A DNA stretch of 64,000 bases from Candidatus Latescibacterota bacterium (GTDB taxonomy: Bacteria > JAAXHH01), in assembly GCA_022823465.1 (NCBI GenBank), contig JAJEHX010000042.1, positions 82,047 through 146,046 of the forward strand, given 5' to 3'. The notes under the pieces were generated by a model. The model searched no databases. It saw only the letters and a list, made by a program, of their open reading frames with translations, and was not told the origin of the DNA. Below, piece after piece: positions 8,143 through 22,296 of this stretch; the stretch's first letter is position 1, and every line of letters starts with the position of its first letter. Position numbers and translations under genes: made by a program.

Positions 8143-9288
8143 TTACTCCTCTTCCTTTGCTCTTTCCATCCTGATCCGTTCCACGCGCTCCATCATCCGG
8201 TCTCGGAGCCCGCCGGGCAACTGGTTCTGGTCGTAGACGTAATGCAGGGGCTCGTGCCGGGCGCCGTCCGCGTTGGCCACGGCGTAACTGCCCCGGCTCG
8301 GCAGCACCTCGAGGTACTCGTCCGGGTACTGGTACATGGTCGCTCCGCCGAACCGGCCGTCCTTGGCCACGGCGTAGAAGTTCAGGCTGAACATGGGGCG
8401 GCCCTTGCCGTCCAGCAGCCGATCCTCGGTCATGGCCACGGCGCGCTCAAGGGCGGCCAGGCAGGCCTCCTGGGGCGACATTCCGCCGCGCATGAACTCC
8501 ACGATCAGGAAAGCGCCACAGACCTTGATGTTCGCCTCGCCCCGGCCCGTGGAACCGGCGGCGCCCACTTCGTTGTCGCAGTACTGCCCCGTGCCGATGA
8601 TGGGACTGTCGCCCACGCGGCCCGGGATCTTCCAGGACAGGCCGCTCGTGGTCGTCACGCTGCCGATGTCCCCGTTCGCGTCCACGCCGCACATGTTGAT
8701 CGTGCCACCCGGACGTTCGATCATCACGTCGTCCTCGTGGTCCAGCCAGTCGTCGTCCGGACTGAGCTGGGACCGCCACCGAAGCCAGTCCTGCCTGCTT
8801 TCCTCGGACAGCAGGTTCTGTTCCTTGAACCCCATGCCGAGAGCGAAGCGCTTCGCGCCCTTGCCTACCAGCATGATGTGATCGGTATAGTCCATGATCG
8901 CCTTGGCAACCAGCGACGCAGAGGCGATGTCCTCCAGCGCGGCGACGGAACCCGCCCGTCGGGTGGGTCCATGCATGACGGACGCGTCAAGGGTGACGAC
9001 ACCGTCTGCGTTGGGACGACCGCCCAGACCCACGGACTGGTCATTGGGGTCCAGTTCCTGGATGTTCACCCCGGCAATGACCGCGTCGAGGGGGTCGGCC
9101 TGGTCATTGGTCATCATCTCGTAGGCTTTCCTGACACCGCGAATGCCGTTACGCGATGCGACCACCGTGGGCGGCGCGGGCGCGGCATGGTTGCTGGGCG
9201 TAGGGGCGGCGTGTGCCTTCGCGGACGCGGCGAGGCCGGTAAGCGCGAGGGCGGAGGTTTCCAGGAAAGCGCGGCGGGTGACTGGCAT
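8143..9288 (-). CDS. Tat-exported N4-glycosylasparaginase (Ntn hydrolase)
   Basis: A 381-aa protein of the glycosylasparaginase (AGA)/type 2 asparaginase family. The N-terminus is a twin-arginine signal (TRRAFLE, then a hydrophobic Ala-rich core ending AKAHA). The mature part carries the autocleavage/catalytic region GGTINM, where the Thr becomes the N-terminal nucleophile after self-processing, followed by TTTSGL and the family signature PGRVGDSPIIGTG and DNEVGAAGSTGRG. The family cleaves the GlcNAc-Asn bond of N-glycopeptides. The residue before the nucleophile is Gly rather than the Asp of the classical enzyme, as I recall in other bacterial members. Export plus the nearby sialidase-family gene would suit glycoprotein scavenging, which is inference. 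Confidence 0.9.
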   Translation of the reverse strand: MPVTRRAFLETSALALTGLAASAKAHAAPTPSNHAAPAPPTVVASRNGIRGVRKAYEMMTNDQADPLDAVIAGVNIQELDPNDQSVGLGGRPNADGVVTLDASVMHGPTRRAGSVAALEDIASASLVAKAIMDYTDHIMLVGKGAKRFALGMGFKEQNLLSEESRQDWLRWRSQLSPDDDWLDHEDDVMIERPGGTINMCGVDANGDIGSVTTTSGLSWKIPGRVGDSPIIGTGQYCDNEVGAAGSTGRGEANIKVCGAFLIVEFMRGGMSPQEACLAALERAVAMTEDRLLDGKGRPMFSLNFYAVAKDGRFGGATMYQYPDEYLEVLPSRGSYAVANADGARHEPLHYVYDQNQLPGGLRDRMMERVERIRMERAKEEE

Positions 9289-9358
9289 GGGTTGACCTCT
9301 TTGTTGTTGTGATGAATCCGGATGCTCGATAAAGAAATCGGAAGGATATAACTCTCGA

Positions 9359-10612
9359 TCACTTTCTTTCTTCTGTCGGCATTGCGGAATAAATGGTTAG
9401 CAGTAGTTCAGAATCGTCAATAAGGCGATATTCGGGCTTTCTTTTTGCGAGTTTTTCGCTTTCGCCTAGGATGATCGGGACACCATCACCACGTTTTTCC
9501 ATATAGAAACTCCGCTCACCACTACCAGGCGTATCTGCCACCGGAGTCTCAGCAAGCAGACTCGTGATCAACTCGTTTCTGGTAGACTGACGCACCGCCA
9601 GACTATCAACAGTTATCGTATTCGGAAGAGCGCCTGGTGAATAGATCTCCAGTCTGTTATCAAACATGAAAAATCTGATCTTCGAAGTTGATATCGAGTA
9701 GTCACGGTGGGCTACCGCATTGACGATCGCCTCGAAGATGGCCCTTTCGCTAAATTGCGGGGTTTCGATCCGATGTGGTCTTTTTATGGCTGAAACCGAC
9801 TGGTTTCTAATGAGGAATTTCATCGCCTGTTCAATCTGCTGATACAACGGTCCACGCATCCTTTGGGCGTCCACCTGATAATTAGAATCTTGTTTTGTCC
9901 CTTGATAGCGTACTGCTTCGATATACGCGTTGGGTAAGAATCTTTCTGGAGTTCTACAACTGAACAAAACACCGGCGACCGAGGCTCGTACGACTCCTGT
10001 TTCGTCCTTCGATAACAGTCCCCGTTTTTGTAACATCACATCCCGCGGGTCGTCTGAACGAGTAGTATAATTGGACCATAGATCTTCTGATAGATCATCA
10101 ATGCTTGATTGTGGAACTGGCTGTTCTTCGAATCGAATGACCCTAGCCTGACTTCGTTGCTGGAACAGCCTCGCAAGGTATTCAGGCGGAATTTTACGTT
10201 TCGAGCTTCCCTGCCGAAAATAGTAACCGCCCGGACTCTCGTGTACAAACAGACTGCGCGGTATTTCTACCACGAGTACGGAACGCGTTTCTCCCGTAAC
10301 ATCGGGAAGTTGCATGCGGAATGCACGAAACGGCAGCGGTGGTGTTATACTATCATTGCACACTTCGAAAACGTAGCGTTCGACCTTGTCCAGGGAATCT
10401 GCGGGAATCCCTACAACGTCTCGCGTTTTGTCGTCGACCCCGAGAACTACCGCTCCGTCGTAGGTATTTCCTATGGCCGCCAACTCGTCGGCCAGATCGT
10501 GACGACAGGGAGAAGAAACACTATCTCCTCTGAAACGGATTTCTTTGAGCTCCAAAGAAGTATCTTCGCCGAGGCGAATCCTTTGCAGCAGTTCTTCAGG
10601 ACTATTAGTCAT
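9359..10612 (-). CDS. AlbA_2 (Schlafen-like) domain and HATPase_c_4 protein
   Basis: A 417-aa protein with an N-terminal AlbA_2 domain (EDTSLELKEIRF, then LADELAAIGNTYDGAVVLGVDD) and a C-terminal GHKL-type ATPase region (ERAIFEAIVNAVAHRDYS, then IYSPGALP), the arrangement often labelled ATP-binding or RecG-like in databases. AlbA_2 is related to the Schlafen core found in bacterial regulators and some defence loci. The start at 10612 lies inside the end of the upstream PHP-SMC gene (8-base overlap) with GGAAGGA just upstream, so the two are coupled. An in-frame extension to 10681 would overlap the neighbour much more and is not supported. Base composition is clearly AT-richer than the flanking genes. 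Function unknown; likely a partner or regulator of the upstream ATPase. Confidence 0.85.
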   Translation of the reverse strand: MTNSPEELLQRIRLGEDTSLELKEIRFRGDSVSSPCRHDLADELAAIGNTYDGAVVLGVDDKTRDVVGIPADSLDKVERYVFEVCNDSITPPLPFRAFRMQLPDVTGETRSVLVVEIPRSLFVHESPGGYYFRQGSSKRKIPPEYLARLFQQRSQARVIRFEEQPVPQSSIDDLSEDLWSNYTTRSDDPRDVMLQKRGLLSKDETGVVRASVAGVLFSCRTPERFLPNAYIEAVRYQGTKQDSNYQVDAQRMRGPLYQQIEQAMKFLIRNQSVSAIKRPHRIETPQFSERAIFEAIVNAVAHRDYSISTSKIRFFMFDNRLEIYSPGALPNTITVDSLAVRQSTRNELITSLLAETPVADTPGSGERSFYMEKRGDGVPIILGESEKLAKRKPEYRLIDDSELLLTIYSAMPTEERK

Positions 10613-13370
10613 TTCGTCCTTCCAACAGGATGCGGCGATAACGATCTTCAAACGCTTTCCGTCCGCCTTCCATGATCTCACAGATCGTATCTCTTACCTC
10701 TTGCTCCTGCAGACTACCTTCGCACTCTTTCTGCGTTTCTCCTCGACGCGCAACGAGCGCCACAACGAGTTCGGCATCACCATTGACCACAATGTTTGCG
10801 TTATGCGTAACCACAATGACCTGTCGAGATCGTTTAACTTCACGCAATTGAGTTACAATCAGATCGTAGATCAGGTGGTTGTCGAGATCATCCTCTGGTT
10901 GGTCGAGAATCAACGGTTCGTCACCATAGGAAAGAAGAAAGGCTAGTAGTGCCGCCGTTTTCTGGCCTGGAGAACCTTCCTGGATAGATCTAAAGTTCTG
11001 CCCATCACCGGCCGCGCTGTATTGTACGTTTAGAGAATCTTTGGGAAACCACAGGTCGAGACGATCAAAAATCTCGGGGGGTAGCTTGCCAAGGTGGGTT
11101 GCGAATCGTTGGTCTGCTAGGGTTGTCTTGCTGTATTCACCTAAGGCGATTTTTCTGATGTAAGTCTTTATTCTTTCAAGGTTCCTTTCGAAGGCTTCAG
11201 TGCCATTTGTATCATATAACTCGCCGAGTAGTCCGCCTCCACCCGGGATGCCAATATCACTCCCAAAGCTACCGTCCTCTTTTTGTATCAACTGGCGAAA
11301 TTCGACCTCGGCAGTCTCCCGACCACCATAAGGCACCATCGTTATTCGAACGTATTGATTGTCTCGTAGGACACTGTCTAGGAAAGTTTTACGAGAAGCT
11401 GTCAGATTCCGACGAACTTCTTGTAGTCGTCTCAAACTTTCTTGCGATTGATCCTTCAGTTTAATGAGTTGTTTTTTGTCTTCGGCCAGTAACTTCAGCC
11501 GCTGTTCAATCACTTGTCTCTGCTGTACCAACTCGCCGTAAGCTGCTGGATCACCGGCTCCTTCTCTTTCAAGATTTTCCTGTAACTGTCGATAGGCGAT
11601 TGCGGCCGCTTCGACCTTTTGGCTCCATGACGATGCTTTACATGCGTCTCGCCATTTGGACAGAATTTCATCTGCTCGTACTGCAAGGGATTCTACCGAT
11701 GTGCGGATTTCGGTCATTTGTTCATGCGCTTCAACTGCTAGTTTGCGTATGTCGGCATCTGATGATTCATCTGGGGCGGATGCAGTAATGTTCAATTGAT
11801 CCGGAACGATTTCGGCCGCGACTTCTCTTAACCGTTCTCCAACATCCGTCCAGTCGTCCTCCCACGCCTCTACGTCTCGCTGCTGGCGTGATCGTATCTG
11901 GAAGGTCTTGAGGATTTCGGCATGGCCCGACTGCTCAAATATCTCCAGTTTCCGTTTCACATCGTCCAATTCACCCAAAAGGCGCTGCTCTTCGTCAAGA
12001 CTAGTCTCAATTTCTCTTGCCTTGGCGCGGAGGGAAAGAAAACGTGTTTCCTCTTGCTTTCGTTCTTCAGACCAAGCACGAAATTCAACCTCAGGCGCTT
12101 CGTTGATGATCTTTAACAATGCGTCCGGTGATTTGGCTAATTGAAACACTTGTTTCTGGCTGTACATCCGTACCGGAAATCGTTGGTTGACTTCACCTTC
12201 CGCCGAATCCCAAACTGAATCTACTTCTCGTTCTATTGGATTGAGACCGCCCATCGGGTTCCACTGGACGCGAAACCGTTCACCGTCTTTCCGACAAATC
12301 ACCCGTATGATGGCGTTGTTGGTAAGCAGTCCAATGTCATTTCTATCAGTATAGGTTTGAGAGTATTGCTCGAATTCCGCCTGTAATACGTCTCCATGCA
12401 ATTCGTCTTTTCGTCGGAGGGCAATGCGTAGGAACTCTACGGCAGAGGACTTCCCAGTACCTCGACCACCAATTATTGCGTTAAACCATGGATTGAAGCT
12501 GATAGAAAAGGATTTACTTCGGCCCATGTAACGCGCTTGAAAAACCTCTATGGATTCCAAAATCAGGGACGAATGCTTGTTAGGATCTTCGACATTCTCG
12601 TCGCATCGACGTACGGAGAGGGCGCCATCCAACAGAGCCAGACGCAATCCCTCAATGCAGGGCGATCCCATTTTTATCCAAGTAAAATGACTGCCAGGAT
12701 ATCTATTGTCAGGCCCTCCGGTAGGATGGTGCGCGTCGGAGCCTAGGATCTCGGCCCAATGCAAACTTTTGTCTAAGTAAAGCTGCGGTTTCTCGTATCC
12801 ACGGTCTACTAACTCCATTGCGAATACATCATTGCAGTTCAGTATTTGCTCCAACGTCGTTCCTCGTAGTTCTTTAAAAATCCCATGGTGTCGATCCACA
12901 TGGGCAGGAATCGCAATGCCGCCATATCTTGCAATCGTCTCTACTACTTTGACAAACGGTTGGGTCGTGACTTGATCGCTAGTGCCTTTTGCTTCAGACG
13001 GAAATCCAACGTCACGCAAAAGATAGTTGATATCCTCCGTGGTCTTATCACGTCCCAGAATCGCGAGAAGATGGACGCCGCCGTGAACCGATATTTCCAC
13101 GCCGGGGAAAACATATAATGGCCTGAATCCATCGGGTTTTTCTGATTCAAGCTCAACGAGCGCAGACTTTACGCAATCAATCCATGCTCCTATGTTATGA
13201 TCCGTGATTGCGACACAGTCAACGCCAGCCTTCATGAAATCTAGAAGCCAGTTTCTAGGAGTTCTCTCTTTAAGGCGTTCTTGATCTGGTCCCTTCCCGT
13301 AGTCTTTGGAAGCCGGTGTATGCGTATGGAAATCGCATTTCCACCACCGTGCACCGTTCCAGTCACTCAT
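10605..13370 (-). CDS. PHP-domain SMC-like ATPase (TrlF/Ppl-like), candidate antiphage protein
   Basis: A 921-aa two-part protein. Residues 1-about 250 form a PHP metal-dependent phosphoesterase domain (FHTHT near 14-18, ITDHN near 55-59, PAHVDRHHG near 155, GSDAHHP near 210). From residue 300 an SMC/RecN-like ATPase follows: Walker A GGRGTGKSS, a long charged coiled coil (about 430-660), then an ABC-type signature (EGSPGQKTA), Walker B (LILDQPEDDLD) and H-loop (VVTHNANI). This is the layout of the TrlF family and of the Ppl (polymerase/histidinol phosphatase-like) defence protein reported among antiphage genes. GGAG lies 7 bases before the ATG. The AlbA_2 gene overlaps its 3' end. The block is AT-richer than its neighbours and sits between housekeeping-type genes, suggesting transfer. 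The defence role is inference. Confidence 0.88.
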   Translation of the reverse strand: MSDWNGARWWKCDFHTHTPASKDYGKGPDQERLKERTPRNWLLDFMKAGVDCVAITDHNIGAWIDCVKSALVELESEKPDGFRPLYVFPGVEISVHGGVHLLAILGRDKTTEDINYLLRDVGFPSEAKGTSDQVTTQPFVKVVETIARYGGIAIPAHVDRHHGIFKELRGTTLEQILNCNDVFAMELVDRGYEKPQLYLDKSLHWAEILGSDAHHPTGGPDNRYPGSHFTWIKMGSPCIEGLRLALLDGALSVRRCDENVEDPNKHSSLILESIEVFQARYMGRSKSFSISFNPWFNAIIGGRGTGKSSAVEFLRIALRRKDELHGDVLQAEFEQYSQTYTDRNDIGLLTNNAIIRVICRKDGERFRVQWNPMGGLNPIEREVDSVWDSAEGEVNQRFPVRMYSQKQVFQLAKSPDALLKIINEAPEVEFRAWSEERKQEETRFLSLRAKAREIETSLDEEQRLLGELDDVKRKLEIFEQSGHAEILKTFQIRSRQQRDVEAWEDDWTDVGERLREVAAEIVPDQLNITASAPDESSDADIRKLAVEAHEQMTEIRTSVESLAVRADEILSKWRDACKASSWSQKVEAAAIAYRQLQENLEREGAGDPAAYGELVQQRQVIEQRLKLLAEDKKQLIKLKDQSQESLRRLQEVRRNLTASRKTFLDSVLRDNQYVRITMVPYGGRETAEVEFRQLIQKEDGSFGSDIGIPGGGGLLGELYDTNGTEAFERNLERIKTYIRKIALGEYSKTTLADQRFATHLGKLPPEIFDRLDLWFPKDSLNVQYSAAGDGQNFRSIQEGSPGQKTAALLAFLLSYGDEPLILDQPEDDLDNHLIYDLIVTQLREVKRSRQVIVVTHNANIVVNGDAELVVALVARRGETQKECEGSLQEQEVRDTICEIMEGGRKAFEDRYRRILLEGRND

Positions 13371-13487
13371 GGAATATCTCCGTCACTGTAGTTGTGTTTG
13401 CTATGATGCAGATGCCCCTTCGGTCTCTCGAAACTCCAAACGGAATTCAGTGTATTCTGGTTTCCACGAAATCGAGAGTCATATCCA

Positions 13488-13516
13488 AATATACCGTTTT
13501 AGCGTGCCAAATACAA
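13488..13516 (-). promoter_or_regulatory. Possible sigma-70 promoter of the PHP-SMC operon
   Basis: On the minus strand TTGTAT, a 17-base spacer and TATATT lie about 120 bases before the PHP-SMC start codon. The -10 is good and the -35 weak, so this is only a candidate. Confidence 0.35.
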
Positions 13517-13581
13517 ACTATTGGTCGAACTGAAGACAGAGTCAGAAAATGTTACGTATTCTTGTATAAAACCTCACAAGA

Positions 13582-14397
13582 TCAGTCCGCCCCGCGTGCC
13601 CAATTGAAAACATCGTACAGCAACACGCCGGCGGCCACGGCCAGGTTCAGGGAATCGGCCCGGCCGACCATGGGAATGCGTACGATCTGATCGCAGGCGG
13701 CGAGGTGGGTTTCAGACAGGCCGTGTTGTTCGCTGCCCAGGCACAGGAGGACGGGCGGGGCATAGCCGGCTTCCCGGTAATCGACCGTCGCGGCGTCTGA
13801 CGCGCCGACCATGGGAAGATCAGTCTTGTTCCGCCAACTGATAAGGGATTCGAGCTCGGTGCGGACGACCCGCTGCGTGAAGATGGCCCCCATGCTGCCA
13901 CGAACTGATGCGGGATCGTAAGGATCCGCCGTATCGCCAAGCAGGATGACGCCCGACGCACCAACCGCCTCACACGTGCGCAGGATCGATCCCAGGTTGC
14001 CCGGGTTGCCCACGTCCTCGAGAACTACCCAGCCGAGCGTCTCGTCTGGAGTCGAATCCTCCACACCGATATCGTCGAGGACGGTCCATCGCTGCCTAAC
14101 GACGGCCCCGAGGCCCTGCGGACCGTCCTTTCTGGACAACGTCTGGAACACGTCGCCGCTTACGTACAGCACCTCGACACCATCCTGCTCCGCCCGCTGC
14201 ACCGTGTCTCTGCCGAAATCGCTGCGAAGCAGTTCCGGCGCGACGACAAGGGTTTCGATGTCCGCCCCGGTCTGCACGGCCTCGCCGGCGAGCCGGATGC
14301 CTTCCGCGAAGAACAGCCCGGTATCCCGTCGTTTCTTGCGCTGTGAAAGCGCACGGATGGCCTTGATTCGGGGATTCCGGGAACTGGTAAGCATCAT
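13582..14397 (-). CDS. TrmH/SpoU-family RNA 2'-O-methyltransferase
   Basis: A 271-aa protein with an N-terminal substrate-binding domain (SSRNPRIKAIRALSQRKKRRDTG) and a SPOUT methyltransferase domain. The trefoil-knot motifs are clear: LEDVGNPGNLGSILRTCEAVGASG (motif 1), LCLGSEQHGLS (motif 2) and IPMVGRADSLNLAVAAGVLLYD (motif 3). Members 2'-O-methylate rRNA or tRNA riboses using SAM. The N-terminal sequence resembles the 23S rRNA RlmB/TsnR-like branch, but the exact target is not evident. Start ATG 14397 (ATGATG tandem); no strong ribosome-binding site. It borders the AT-rich defence candidate block and looks like native chromosome. Confidence 0.9.
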   Translation of the reverse strand: MMLTSSRNPRIKAIRALSQRKKRRDTGLFFAEGIRLAGEAVQTGADIETLVVAPELLRSDFGRDTVQRAEQDGVEVLYVSGDVFQTLSRKDGPQGLGAVVRQRWTVLDDIGVEDSTPDETLGWVVLEDVGNPGNLGSILRTCEAVGASGVILLGDTADPYDPASVRGSMGAIFTQRVVRTELESLISWRNKTDLPMVGASDAATVDYREAGYAPPVLLCLGSEQHGLSETHLAACDQIVRIPMVGRADSLNLAVAAGVLLYDVFNWARGAD

Positions 14398-17933: not shown

Positions 17934-18221
17934 ATGGGCATCGGCTTCGACTGGAGCACCGAAAAGAACCGGCGGCTCATTGAACAGCGGGGAATCTCGT
18001 TCGAGCGCGTTGTCGTTGCCATAGAACAAGGCGGTCTGGTGGACGTGCTCGAACACCCGAACCAGGGAAAATACCCTGGACAGTTGATCTACGCCGTGGA
18101 GATTGATAAGTACATCCACCTCGTGCCTTTCGTGACGCAGGCCGACGGCACTCGCTTTCTGAAGACGGTCATTCCGAGCCGTAAGGCGACGAGAGACTAC
18201 AGGAGGAGGCGGACTTCGTGA
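17934..18221 (+). CDS. BrnT-like toxin of a type II toxin-antitoxin pair
   Basis: A 95-aa protein that starts FDWSTEKNRRLIEQRGISFERV and ends FLKTVIPSRKATRDYRRRR, the pattern of BrnT-type RNase toxins (RelE-like fold: an N-terminal D/W-x-x-x-K-N segment, central beta strands, C-terminal basic RKA..Y region). BrnT cleaves RNA and is neutralised by BrnA. The gene overlaps the next one by 4 bases (GTGA), the usual toxin-first order of brnTA loci. No ribosome-binding site is possible if transcription starts at the predicted site. Homology is by pattern only, so a related DUF4258-like toxin is an alternative. Confidence 0.7.
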   Translation: MGIGFDWSTEKNRRLIEQRGISFERVVVAIEQGGLVDVLEHPNQGKYPGQLIYAVEIDKYIHLVPFVTQADGTRFLKTVIPSRKATRDYRRRRTS

Positions 18222-18493
18222 ACGACGAATTAAACGCTGAAGAACGCGATGTGCTCGATCGATTCGAACAGGACGAGTTGCGCACCGCCCCCGATGCCGA
18301 ACGAGAGATCGAGGCAGCCCGTCAGGCGGCTCGCAATACGTTCAATAAAACCAAGCGGGTGAATCTCCGGGTGACCGAGCGCGACTTCAATCTCGCGCAC
18401 GCGCGGGCCAGGGAAGAGGGGATACCCTATCAGACGCTGCTGTCCAGCGTCATCCACAAGTATCTGTCCGGCCGCCTTACGGAGAAGAAGTAG
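18218..18493 (+). CDS. CopG/BrnA-like antitoxin
   Basis: A 91-aa charged protein with an acidic N-terminus and a C-terminal ribbon-helix-helix-like segment (TKRVNLRVTERDFNLAHARAREEGIPYQTLLSSVIHKYLSGRL). RVNLRV fits the DNA-contacting beta strand, followed by two helices. It starts with GTG overlapping the toxin stop, with GGAGG 8 bases upstream. By family knowledge it should bind the toxin and repress the shared promoter at 17899-17927, where an inverted repeat lies in the spacer. Confidence 0.75.
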   Translation: MNDELNAEERDVLDRFEQDELRTAPDAEREIEAARQAARNTFNKTKRVNLRVTERDFNLAHARAREEGIPYQTLLSSVIHKYLSGRLTEKK

Positions 18494-18734: not shown

Positions 18735-21700
18735 CTAAACCAGCAAGTCACGCTCAGTTTTGATTTCATCAATTACTGAATCAATTTCTTCGTAGCATCT
18801 CCACGCTGATATCCGCATGACTTTCCAGCCAAGATTGACCAGAACTCGATCGCGAGTTACATCTTGCCTACGCTGCCGCCCCCGATCATCCAGATGATGA
18901 TCACCGTCAACCTCGATATTGAGCTTTATTCCATTTTCCAAAAGTGCGAAGTCCAACTCATATCCTTCCACGTTAAGCTTTGCATAAGGCGAGAGACCCT
19001 GAAGCTGCATGGCTGCTAGCAATAGCTCTTCCGACCTGCTGTCTGTACGAAAATCTCCGATGATCTCGACAGCACCTTCATTCCCAGCGACAGTCTCCCG
19101 CAGGTATTCACGTAGAGAGGTAAGAGTGGGACTTCCCAATACACCAATATTCGGGTGGCCTATAACGATTAGCGCCTGCTTGGCACGGCTGACCGCGACA
19201 TTGAGCAGATTCCTCTCTTTTTCTATCCAACGGGTACCGGACCTGGACATTCCAGGAGACAGCACAGAAGACAGAATAACCACCTCGCGCTCGTCTCCCT
19301 GCAGGCGGTGTGCCGTTCCACTTACAAAACCAATTTCATCCAGGGTATCGCGACTCAAGTGCTTTTGAGCGATTTTGAAAATCAGTTGTGCTTGTGCCGC
19401 GAAAGGCGTAACCACACCGACGCTCTTGTAGCCGGCATGCAATACGTCGAGAAGCTCTTTTACCGCCTGTTCCGCCTCGGCATGGTTTACCCAACTCCCA
19501 TCCTTAGGCCGCTCCGCCACGCCCTTGACATCGTTCCAGGCGATGGCACGATACCGCCTATAAGAATCAGAGACGTCTGTAAGTACAGTAAGTTCATCGT
19601 TGTAAAACGCGGTATTGAACCAACGGGCGATGTAGGGATGGCACCGGTAATGTTCATTAAGGAGAACTGGCTTTGAAGGTTTTGCAACATACTCGAAAGC
19701 ATGATATGCCGAACCGTCTTTGTGGTGGACGCCACGCTCGCGGAGTTCGCTGTTGTCGAACCCAGACTGTGTTGCGATTTCCTGTAGAAGACCATCACTC
19801 AGGGAAATGATCGGACTAAGTTGGTTCGGATCTCCCACCAATGCTAATCGCTTTGCACGATATGCCAGGGGAAGCACGGCAGCGAGACTGCACTGACTGG
19901 CTTCGTCGACGATCACAAGATCGAACAGACCGGATTCTAATTTAAAGTTGGTATGGGCTGAGAGGGCCGTGCACGCCCATCCTCGTAGATAGGGAAACGA
20001 ATTCGCAATAGCCTTTCTGAACTGGTCGACGTTAGCGGGTATTGTTCCGAACGCCGTCAGACTGCCAGCTCCCGAACGAATTCGCGTTGCGGCGTCCGCC
20101 TGGATTGCACTGAGGCTTGCCGCGTTCCAATTATTGTCTGCGTCACGAATACTCGCTGCCGGATCGCCTACGGCAGACTCCAGTTGTTTACGTTCAACCC
20201 GACCAACCTTCATCTGGTCGGTGAACCATGCCATACGCTGATCTGTTTCAGCCCAACGGACAAGGATTTCCAGTGATGTTGTTTCGTTGCACCCCACGCG
20301 CCGGTATAGTCGTCGTATACGGAAACGTCGGAAAAACCAGGCGCGCGTCAATCGTCCTGCACGTCGCTCAATCTCTTTTGAACTGATAGACAGTTTGGGT
20401 GAATCCTCACGGCCCCAGATTGACCACGTGGCTTCTTTAAAGGCTTGTTCGAGCTCTTCCCTTTCTTCCGCAATGCGTAGCAGTTCCTCGTTTACTTCGT
20501 CGAGACGGGTAAGTTGCGTCAGCAACTTTGTACGTTGATCATTTATGCGTTTCAGTTCAGCGCGCACCGTTGATTGGTTACTACGGTGAGAGGCTGCTCG
20601 TAACTTCGCAACCGCGATACGGTCTGGTATCTGCTCACGTATTTCCCGGTTTCCAGTGCGTAGCAAGAGACCCTTAAAGACGTCCCTTTCGGCCCGATCA
20701 ACCGCGACATCGACTGCGGCATTATTGGTTGAGGTCACCAAAACGTTTTCGTTGTCCAGCCACGCGTTTGTAACGGCATTCACTACGAGTTGCGTTTTGC
20801 CTGTCCCTGGGGGACCGGTCACGACCGTCAGGGGCTTTTTGCGAAGCAACTCCAGGGTTTCCTCCTGAGATTGGTTGCAAACAAGCGGAGCAGCAAGTGG
20901 ACCGGATGGTGCTCGGTCTTTGACGTTGGTGGTGGACTTGTTTGAAATGAGATGGGCCGCGGCGGTTGTGTTCCAGTCTCTACGCGTTTGCAGTTGCCGC
21001 AGTTCCTCACGTAGGGTAGCCTGGTATTCACTAGACGTCTCGACTATAACCGAAACAGCAGTGTTGTAGACGCCTTGTCTACGACTCACTACGGGTTTGA
21101 GCGATGTCGGATCGAGTTGTGATATGATGTCCAATCCAAGCAAACGGGACGTTCGAATAGCTACGGAGACGAAGGCATCGGCATCCCCAAACGGCAGCCC
21201 ATCATTCAATAGCTCGTAGATGTCTTCCGCGATCGAAGGATCGAATATGTTGCTCGCCGTGATAGCTAAATTGTATTCAGGTTCGACAGTTGCATGGAGT
21301 TCCCATTTTTCTTTTTTGTCTCGTTGAGGTTCGATATGGACGACAAATAGAGGTGCGACCTTAGAAGAATGATCCCTGTCGGTTACGACGACCGTAGGCC
21401 AGCCGTATATGATTGTCTGTCCATCTCGCCGATTGGAGTGAGCCAGGAATTCGTCGAGTGATTCAGGTGCAGGCACAGAGTCGTTATGCCCCACCACAAG
21501 TTCCTCTTGTCCATGGTGCACGAACCATTGTGAGTTTCCCTTTACATAGGGTACCAGTGATTTTGCAGCCTCTGCCTCGATACACCGTTGCGCATATTGA
21601 CACAGTTGCTTCCACTGGGTCTGTTGGTTATCGACAGGAACAGTCTCGGACCGCTGGGTTCCGGCAATGCCTGTTTTCTTACCAACATACCTGGAATCAC

Positions 21701-21896
21701 CAGTTTCGTTTTTGGATGGAATTCGTCGGGAAGGAACTCGGAAATTACTATCAGCGCGAGCACATTCCTCACACCAGACCTTTTTCGAAGAAGGCGACCA
21801 GTGTGCTTTTTGGCCAGCTTTGATGGGCTTCGAACAGGACGAACATCGTCCGTCATACTTCAATGGAATGAGCCGTGTATCGCTAGGAAGCTTCAT
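18735..21896 (-). CDS. Zinc-finger/SF1 helicase with C-terminal DUF559-type nuclease domain
   Basis: A 1053-aa multidomain protein. Cys pairs CSSC (near 19-22) and CEEC (near 43-46) form a zinc ribbon. An AAA_11/AAA_12-type SF1 helicase follows: Walker A GPPGTGKT (about 362-369), a coiled insertion, Walker B VIVDEASQCSL, GDPNQLSPI, and the C-terminal motifs GTAHRLQGDEREVVILS and LLNVAVSRAKQALIVIGHP. The last 110 residues match the Vsr/DUF559 PD-(D/E)xK fold (YELDFALLENGIKLNIEVDGDHH). Dna2/Upf1-like helicases fused to such nucleases are frequent in defence islands. It is monocistronic, AT-richer than flanking genes, and next to a toxin-antitoxin pair. TTG 21899 is an alternative start. A defence role is inference. 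Confidence 0.87.
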   Translation of the reverse strand: MKLPSDTRLIPLKYDGRCSSCSKPIKAGQKAHWSPSSKKVWCEECARADSNFRVPSRRIPSKNETGDSRYVGKKTGIAGTQRSETVPVDNQQTQWKQLCQYAQRCIEAEAAKSLVPYVKGNSQWFVHHGQEELVVGHNDSVPAPESLDEFLAHSNRRDGQTIIYGWPTVVVTDRDHSSKVAPLFVVHIEPQRDKKEKWELHATVEPEYNLAITASNIFDPSIAEDIYELLNDGLPFGDADAFVSVAIRTSRLLGLDIISQLDPTSLKPVVSRRQGVYNTAVSVIVETSSEYQATLREELRQLQTRRDWNTTAAAHLISNKSTTNVKDRAPSGPLAAPLVCNQSQEETLELLRKKPLTVVTGPPGTGKTQLVVNAVTNAWLDNENVLVTSTNNAAVDVAVDRAERDVFKGLLLRTGNREIREQIPDRIAVAKLRAASHRSNQSTVRAELKRINDQRTKLLTQLTRLDEVNEELLRIAEEREELEQAFKEATWSIWGREDSPKLSISSKEIERRAGRLTRAWFFRRFRIRRLYRRVGCNETTSLEILVRWAETDQRMAWFTDQMKVGRVERKQLESAVGDPAASIRDADNNWNAASLSAIQADAATRIRSGAGSLTAFGTIPANVDQFRKAIANSFPYLRGWACTALSAHTNFKLESGLFDLVIVDEASQCSLAAVLPLAYRAKRLALVGDPNQLSPIISLSDGLLQEIATQSGFDNSELRERGVHHKDGSAYHAFEYVAKPSKPVLLNEHYRCHPYIARWFNTAFYNDELTVLTDVSDSYRRYRAIAWNDVKGVAERPKDGSWVNHAEAEQAVKELLDVLHAGYKSVGVVTPFAAQAQLIFKIAQKHLSRDTLDEIGFVSGTAHRLQGDEREVVILSSVLSPGMSRSGTRWIEKERNLLNVAVSRAKQALIVIGHPNIGVLGSPTLTSLREYLRETVAGNEGAVEIIGDFRTDSRSEELLLAAMQLQGLSPYAKLNVEGYELDFALLENGIKLNIEVDGDHHLDDRGRQRRQDVTRDRVLVNLGWKVMRISAWRCYEEIDSVIDEIKTERDLLV

Positions 21897-22296
21897 CAAG
21901 GATTCTCATTGAGCGCGGTCAGTCGCGTTAGACAGAAAATACAGCCTAAAACTGCACCGGCGCGATCATCCGGATATCTCTCGTGTCGAATTACCACTTT
22001 GCAGGATCCCTCTAACAATCCATGCACCCTTGTGCTATCGATCTACGGAGAATATGTTTGCAGTTTCTCGCTGTCTACACAAATTGCCATTACAGTGCGT
22101 TCCGAGGTCAGATGAAGAAACCGCTCTAAAGAGAGAATACGTTTGCGTTTTCTGAACTTCTGAACTTAACGTGGCTTTAATCAACCTGATATGCAATTAC
22201 ACGTCCCGGAAGTAGGTACATTTAGATATTTAGCTGAATCCCCAACTTACAACTACGCGACGAGTGCTGAAATCGTTCTATGACCGGAGACCACAG
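21897..22296. other. AT-rich intergenic region
   Basis: About 400 bases between the divergent helicase and RmlA genes, AT-richer than the window average. No coding sequence is supported. It should hold promoters for both genes; I could not identify a convincing pair of -35/-10 boxes. Confidence 0.5.

Follow-up and report, generated by a model that had tools for sequence, protein, structure and literature searches.

What do two overlapping genes, one for a PHP-SMC-type ATPase and the other for a Schlafen-like protein, do for a bacterium whose closest congener has an empty site in their place? We address this question for trlF (10605..13370, reverse strand) and trlG (9359..10612, reverse strand) in a 64,000-nucleotide stretch of a Candidatus Latescibacterota genome (contig JAJEHX010000042.1, positions 82,047 to 146,046; hereafter the window, whose coordinates are used throughout). 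The pair is very probably a phage-defence module, since the two genes recur together in many bacterial phyla and often form part of antiviral operons already characterized. An earlier note, made from the letters of the window, had presented it as a candidate defence system in a two-gene form of which it knew no description. The first part of that claim is supported, in that the pair is a two-gene, horizontally acquired unit whose role is most likely antiviral, whereas the second is not: the pair corresponds to the last two genes of the Photorhabdus laumondii DJC TRL operon (trlR-trlF-trlG), published in 2020 (PMC7554251), and is also annotated in RefSeq plasmids. The pair is thus not new as gene content and belongs to a described family. 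What is new is that TrlG accompanies most TrlF proteins in one of two clades (clade B, below), that Ppl nests within this clade, that the pair occurs inside BREX, Hma and type I restriction-modification (RM) operons, and that the window copy carries full PHP and Schlafen E..E..D sites.

The first gene, trlF, starts with ATG and encodes 921 amino acids, combining a PHP domain with an SMC/Rad50-type ABC ATPase, while trlG encodes 417 amino acids with SLFN_AlbA_2 and HATPase_c_4 domains. The mechanical open reading frame (ORF) of trlG begins at a GTG at 10681, but the start common to its relatives is the ATG at 10612, so that 8 nt (ATGACTAA, 10605..10612, reverse strand) are shared between the trlF stop and the trlG start. 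This architecture, including the 8-base overlap, had been read correctly in the earlier note and is confirmed here by the ORFs and by family scores above their cut-offs. Overlaps of 1-22 nt occur in most relatives checked, and judging from the 8-nt overlap, translational coupling of the two genes is likely. Upstream of trlF, the intergenic region (13371..13581) that separates it from an rRNA methyltransferase gene holds no trlR-like regulator gene, its longest coding-strand ORF being 23 amino acids, and promoter and terminator scans gave matches at chance level only.

TrlF belongs to the NCBIfam family TrlF_fam_ATP (NF045780), scoring 638 bits over residues 5-914 against a membership cut-off of 350. 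It also matches the Ppl family (NF042955) with 571 bits, short of the equivalog cut-off of 1000, and the PADLOC Ppl model with 473 bits. The PHP domain covers about residues 8-250 and is followed by an ABC ATPase with a long coiled coil (~270-915); Pfam matches are to AAA_21, SMC_N and AAA_23. In the alignment, the PHP signature is complete at all nine positions (H15, H17, D57, H58, E92, H100, H157, D212 and H214; HHDHEHHDH), and the ATPase shows Walker A (G301-S308), Walker B (D823/E826) and H-loop (H856) motifs, with K307, D823, E826 and H856 invariant. Searching solved structures by sequence with TrlF returned no match; a Foldseek search with its structure model matched the heads of JetC, SMC and Rad50 proteins together with the PHP domain of RNase AM. 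This model, like that of TrlG below, is consistent with the domains assigned from sequence.

In TrlG, the SLFN_AlbA_2 domain (residues 16-141) scores 50.7 bits against a Pfam cut-off of 25.3, and the HATPase_c_4/GHKL domain (residues 310-401), preceded by the N-box FEAIVNAVAHRDY, scores 64 bits, again above the Pfam cut-off. Residues E16, E21 and D61, invariant in a six-sequence alignment, align to E205, E210 and D248 of rat SLFN13 (phmmer against 5yd0; our numbering), the residues that a published study identified as the RNase site and whose mutation abolishes or diminishes activity. The N-terminal domain, modeled with a predicted local distance difference test score (pLDDT) of about 80-93 over residues 20-135, matches the Schlafen cores 5yd0, 9jr9 and 9o0d in Foldseek with E-values of 5e-6 to 7e-4; global template-modeling scores of these matches are kept low by the poor quality of the remainder of the model. 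Further Foldseek matches include a Corynebacterium AlbA_2/HATPase-like protein, the SAMD9 tRNase domain and histidine-kinase CA domains. From these alignments and models, TrlG is probably a Schlafen-type RNase.

The pair is a recent, horizontally acquired insertion. Its neighbors, an asparaginase-2 gene on the left (8143-9288) and the rRNA methyltransferase gene on the right (13582-14397), are native, each product being 93% identical to its counterpart in the closest congener, G007, and every one, or nearly every one, of 12 genus genomes has both genes. In G007 the two genes lie 113 bp apart and the site is empty: DNA homology (blastn) stops at window position 9307 and restarts at 13580, with 89 bp where the window has a 4272-bp island (9308..13579) containing only trlF and trlG. 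This break in homology delimits the pair and its short flanks as the whole insert. As the earlier note had observed, the block is AT-richer than its native-looking flanks, at 48.1% GC compared to 60.5% for the window, and GC at third codon positions is 0.46 compared to 0.75-0.85 in the two flanking genes. The insert contains no integrase or transposase gene; no direct or inverted repeats were found at its left end and only weak matches at its right, with no obvious terminal repeat, and Rfam and tRNA scans of the window were empty, indicating no tRNA integration site. TrlF is missing from 10 of 11 congeners, which together with the empty G007 site rejects a core gene pair and answers the earlier note's concern that the pair might occupy single-copy core positions.

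The eleventh congener, G011, carries a different TrlF (519 bits) with TrlG downstream at another locus, beside a transketolase-like gene (L044, 2321-6625). This is a second, independently acquired pair in the genus; the PHP site of its TrlF is degenerate (QNDHEHHDV), which suggests that the two genes can persist without the PHP metal site. The gap between the asparaginase and methyltransferase genes (9289-13581 in the window) holds a 194-amino-acid gene in two of the congeners read (L037, L042), a 315-amino-acid ORF in G011 and nothing in G007, and since its contents differ in this way it appears to be a variable site.

How regularly do the two genes travel together? The seven nearest named TrlF relatives found by sequence search come from Bacteroidetes, Nitrospirae, Magnetococcales, Chloroflexi, Synergistaceae, Rhodothermales and Acidobacteria, and TrlG is adjacent or overlapping downstream in six of them, the exception being the Chloroflexi locus (L008); in the Acidobacteria relative, the downstream TrlG is split over two frames. 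In evenly sampled sets of 399 Pseudomonadota and 395 Bacteroidota genomes, TrlF above cut-off was found in 27 and 35 genomes, respectively. An unrooted FastTree phylogeny of 77 TrlF proteins separates a clade A (18 rows, none with TrlG) from a clade B (59 rows, 42 with TrlG directly downstream), and the TrlG label requires 8 changes on the tree compared to 25.6 in shuffles. The pairing also holds in the reverse direction, with 19 of 22 TrlG matches at E < 1e-48 in the Pseudomonadota genomes adjoining TrlF; the remaining three are a TrlG without adjacent TrlF (G179) and two that lie between a helicase and a DNA methyltransferase (G282, G393). The idea that the AlbA_2 gene occurs mainly without its PHP-SMC partner, which the earlier note had named as damaging to its proposal, is accordingly rejected for close relatives, whereas copies lacking TrlF are numerous in the AlbA_2 superfamily at large.

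The tree also bears on the place of Ppl, which the lack of TrlG had led us to expect in clade A. The NCBIfam scan and the tree instead put the three annotated Ppl proteins inside clade B, in a group of 29 rows (support 99), 20 of which bear TrlG, the window's among them. This nesting makes Ppl look like a one-gene offshoot and disfavors the view that Ppl came first and was later joined by a second gene. Loss of TrlG in the Ppl lineage would explain this most simply; it is formally possible that TrlG was instead gained in the other clade-B lineages, the tree being unrooted and built by a fast method. Separately, IncF plasmids carry single-gene clade-B TrlF proteins (L144, L145), one 48.5% and the other about 39% identical to the window TrlF; this type is common on Enterobacteriaceae plasmids, near RM genes, and is annotated as TrlF rather than Ppl.

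Defence-type genes lie within 4.5 kb in at least 7 of about 27 clade-B neighborhoods listed, for which neighbor annotation is partial. For example, BrxHI and PglZ directly follow TrlG at L006, PglX precedes the pair at L011, and at L193 the pair sits between PglXI, which overlaps TrlF, and BrxHI downstream. The pair is flanked by HmaA upstream and HmaB downstream at L009, a TIR protein gene directly follows TrlG at L200, and the E. coli IncC plasmid pNDM102337 (L146) carries the overlapping genes hsdR-trlF-trlG-hsdS-AAA-hsdM. A clade-B TrlF without TrlG (L195, 8756-14712, the same gene as L076) likewise lies inside a type I RM operon (HsdM-HsdS-TrlF-HsdR), since HsdM and HsdS are upstream and an HsdR gene overlapping TrlF comes next. 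TrlF-family matches occur on some 481 plasmid records, 404 of them predicted conjugative, and on many plasmids RefSeq labels the overlapping pair as ‘TrlF family AAA-like ATPase’ and ‘RNA-binding domain-containing protein’. TrlG relatives are also found with other partners. In G282 (L203, 7668-16327), a TrlG-like protein has a DrmD-like SNF2 helicase on one side and type III Mod and Res genes on the other, and G393 has the same layout (L166 and L167 are related loci), forming an alternative partner set. At L113 (2379-7246), a TrlG homologue is directly 3' of a 1207-amino-acid SIR2 protein whose first ~450 residues match Dsr1 (354 bits), and at L105 a TrlG relative without TrlF is partnered with a type IIG enzyme.

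The systems closest to the window pair show both what is shared and what differs. The TRL operon and plasmid pYR3 of Yersinia ruckeri (L152) have the same two families in the same order, overlapping in pYR3, and are likewise accessory and mobile. In contrast to them, the window has no trlR-like gene, falls in a different subclade, has the complete PHP signature where pYR3 has HHNHEHHDK, and has in TrlG a Glu aligned with SLFN13 E210, which in the pYR3/IncC group is replaced by Gln. In Photorhabdus, transcription of the TRL operon rises on temperature up-shift, and growth at 36 °C is restored by substitutions, stops or an insertion sequence element in trlG or by deletion of the operon, while no arrest-relieving mutations arose in trlF (PMC7554251). 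Mapped through the TrlG proteins of pYR3, IncC and Pseudomonas, the published substitution S16 would fall in the AlbA_2 E-D-S motif, and P318, S331, N335 and G354 would fall, with a one-residue offset, in conserved GHKL motifs. Ppl of E. coli is a single-stranded DNA 3'-5' exonuclease that is inhibited by nucleoside triphosphates (NTPs) and triggered by nucleotide depletion together with 3'-OH ends (PMC12904381). It shares the PHP-ATPase architecture, an identical PHP signature and the clade with the window TrlF, but it is a single gene without TrlG and only about 30% identical to the window protein, whose gene overlaps trlG by 8 nt. Finally, Schlafen-RNase/GHKL/winged helix-turn-helix proteins have been associated with BREX across at least 1017 taxa and counted among ‘backup suicidal effectors’ (PMC12839542, 2026). 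These proteins join an AlbA_2/Schlafen domain to a minimal histidine-kinase ATPase and lie beside or between BREX genes, as TrlG does at L006, L011 and L193, whereas the window copy is outside any BREX operon; searching the text of that study for PHP, TrlF and Ppl gave no match.

How might such a module work? We lean towards a division of labor in which TrlF senses infection and attacks DNA, while TrlG, as an RNase, brings about growth arrest. TrlF joins a Rad50/SMC-type ATPase to an N-terminal PHP domain that would act as a metal-dependent exonuclease. If it behaves like E. coli Ppl, bound NTPs would keep it inactive until a phage drains the nucleotide pool and leaves 3' DNA ends exposed. TrlG, probably made in a fixed ratio with TrlF given the overlapping frames, would bind ATP through its GHKL domain and be released or switched on by active TrlF, possibly through direct contact. 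It may then cut tRNA or other RNA so that growth stops before phage release, while the PHP site of TrlF would degrade phage DNA. Of this scheme, the sequence shows the catalytic signatures, the gene coupling, the mobility and the setting among defence genes; gating by NTPs and the exonuclease are known from Ppl, the dependence of arrest on TrlG from Photorhabdus and RNase action from SLFN13, and the phage trigger, cleavage of RNA by TrlG and signalling between the two proteins are inferred. The logic of a sensor ATPase with a separate nuclease recalls PARIS, in which the ABC ATPase AriA is the sensor and AriB a tRNA-cleaving nuclease effector (PMC12839542); the two differ in that AriA is of the OLD type and AriB a TOPRIM nuclease, whereas TrlF has its own PHP nuclease and TrlG is Schlafen-type.

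Several points weigh against this interpretation. We found no phage assay of any TrlF-TrlG pair in the literature, and the sole genetics found on the pair concerns temperature (PMC7554251). Many pairs, including that of the window, stand by themselves as apparent insertions between housekeeping genes. The TrlG model is weak in its C-terminal half (mean pLDDT 63.6), and the AlbA_2 E..E motif is conserved family-wide, stand-alone copies included, so that by itself it is no proof of RNase activity in TrlG. Moreover, TrlG of the pYR3/IncC group, the nearest to the Photorhabdus locus, has Gln in place of the second Glu, and the Photorhabdus locus still arrests growth.

A less likely alternative is that TrlF alone attacks phage DNA in the manner of Ppl, with TrlG an accessory, either an ATP-binding regulator or a specificity factor binding DNA or RNA. 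The complete Ppl signature in the window TrlF fits this account, as does the fact that Ppl works without TrlG, and AlbA_2/HATPase_c_4 proteins are sometimes annotated as regulators. Of the clade-B rows, 14 of 16 that lack TrlG have an intact PHP site, compared to 19 of 41 that carry it (Fisher p = 0.007), as if PHP were needed where TrlG is lacking; the difference is not significant once phylogeny is allowed for, and decay of PHP only where TrlG is present, being unsupported by phylogenetically independent pairs, is kept as a hint. The same decay speaks against TrlF as sole effector, since the degenerate PHP sites of several TrlG-bearing groups (as in G011 and the pYR3 group) imply that TrlG can outlast the PHP site. 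The Photorhabdus arrest, lost with TrlG and never relieved through trlF, argues in the same direction. Those same Photorhabdus data might suggest a stress or temperature growth-arrest switch with no antiviral role, which we regard as improbable: the patchy distribution, the site left empty in a sister species, carriage on plasmids and location within BREX, Hma and RM operons are more in keeping with defence, and the arrest on heating may itself be auto-activation of a defence module. Least probable is a toxin-antitoxin or plasmid-stabilization module with TrlG as toxin and TrlF as antidote, for despite the overlapping genes, TrlG-dependent arrest and conjugative-plasmid carriage, a 921-amino-acid SMC-type ATPase with an intact nuclease site would be an unusual antidote, and TrlG homologues without TrlF exist, as do lone TrlF homologues such as the antiphage Ppl.

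Elsewhere in the window, a second AT-rich accessory gene (18735-21899, reverse strand; local GC about 0.49-0.55) lies 5.4 kb beyond the trlF start. It encodes a 1054-amino-acid superfamily 1 helicase (AAA_11/AAA_12) with a C-terminal MTES_1575/DUF559 nuclease, whose best PADLOC match is MkoC (215 bits), a Mokosh-like similarity. The gene is present in 4 of 12 genus genomes; because G003 and G010, like the window, have it within a few kb of the same methyltransferase gene, this stretch looks like a small defence hot spot. Adjoining it are two small overlapping genes (17934-18493, forward strand) that resemble a BrnT toxin and a CopG/BrnA antitoxin, both scoring below Pfam cut-offs.

Taken further, the phage-defence reading suggests, as a tentative picture about which we are slightly more doubtful than confident, that TrlF and TrlG make up a widespread antiviral system of two components, represented here in several phyla: a PHP-SMC nuclease sensing DNA ends and NTPs would activate a Schlafen RNase. 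Ppl would then have been derived by loss of the RNase, leaving a single gene, and the Photorhabdus locus would be a defence module tripped by heat. Such a system would join three things that have been described separately, namely the antiphage protein Ppl, the temperature-restriction locus of Photorhabdus and the Schlafen-type proteins of BREX operons. On this picture the two-gene form should be the common one in clade B, with Ppl an offshoot, and there would be a defence explanation for the puzzling heat-sensitivity phenotype of Photorhabdus.

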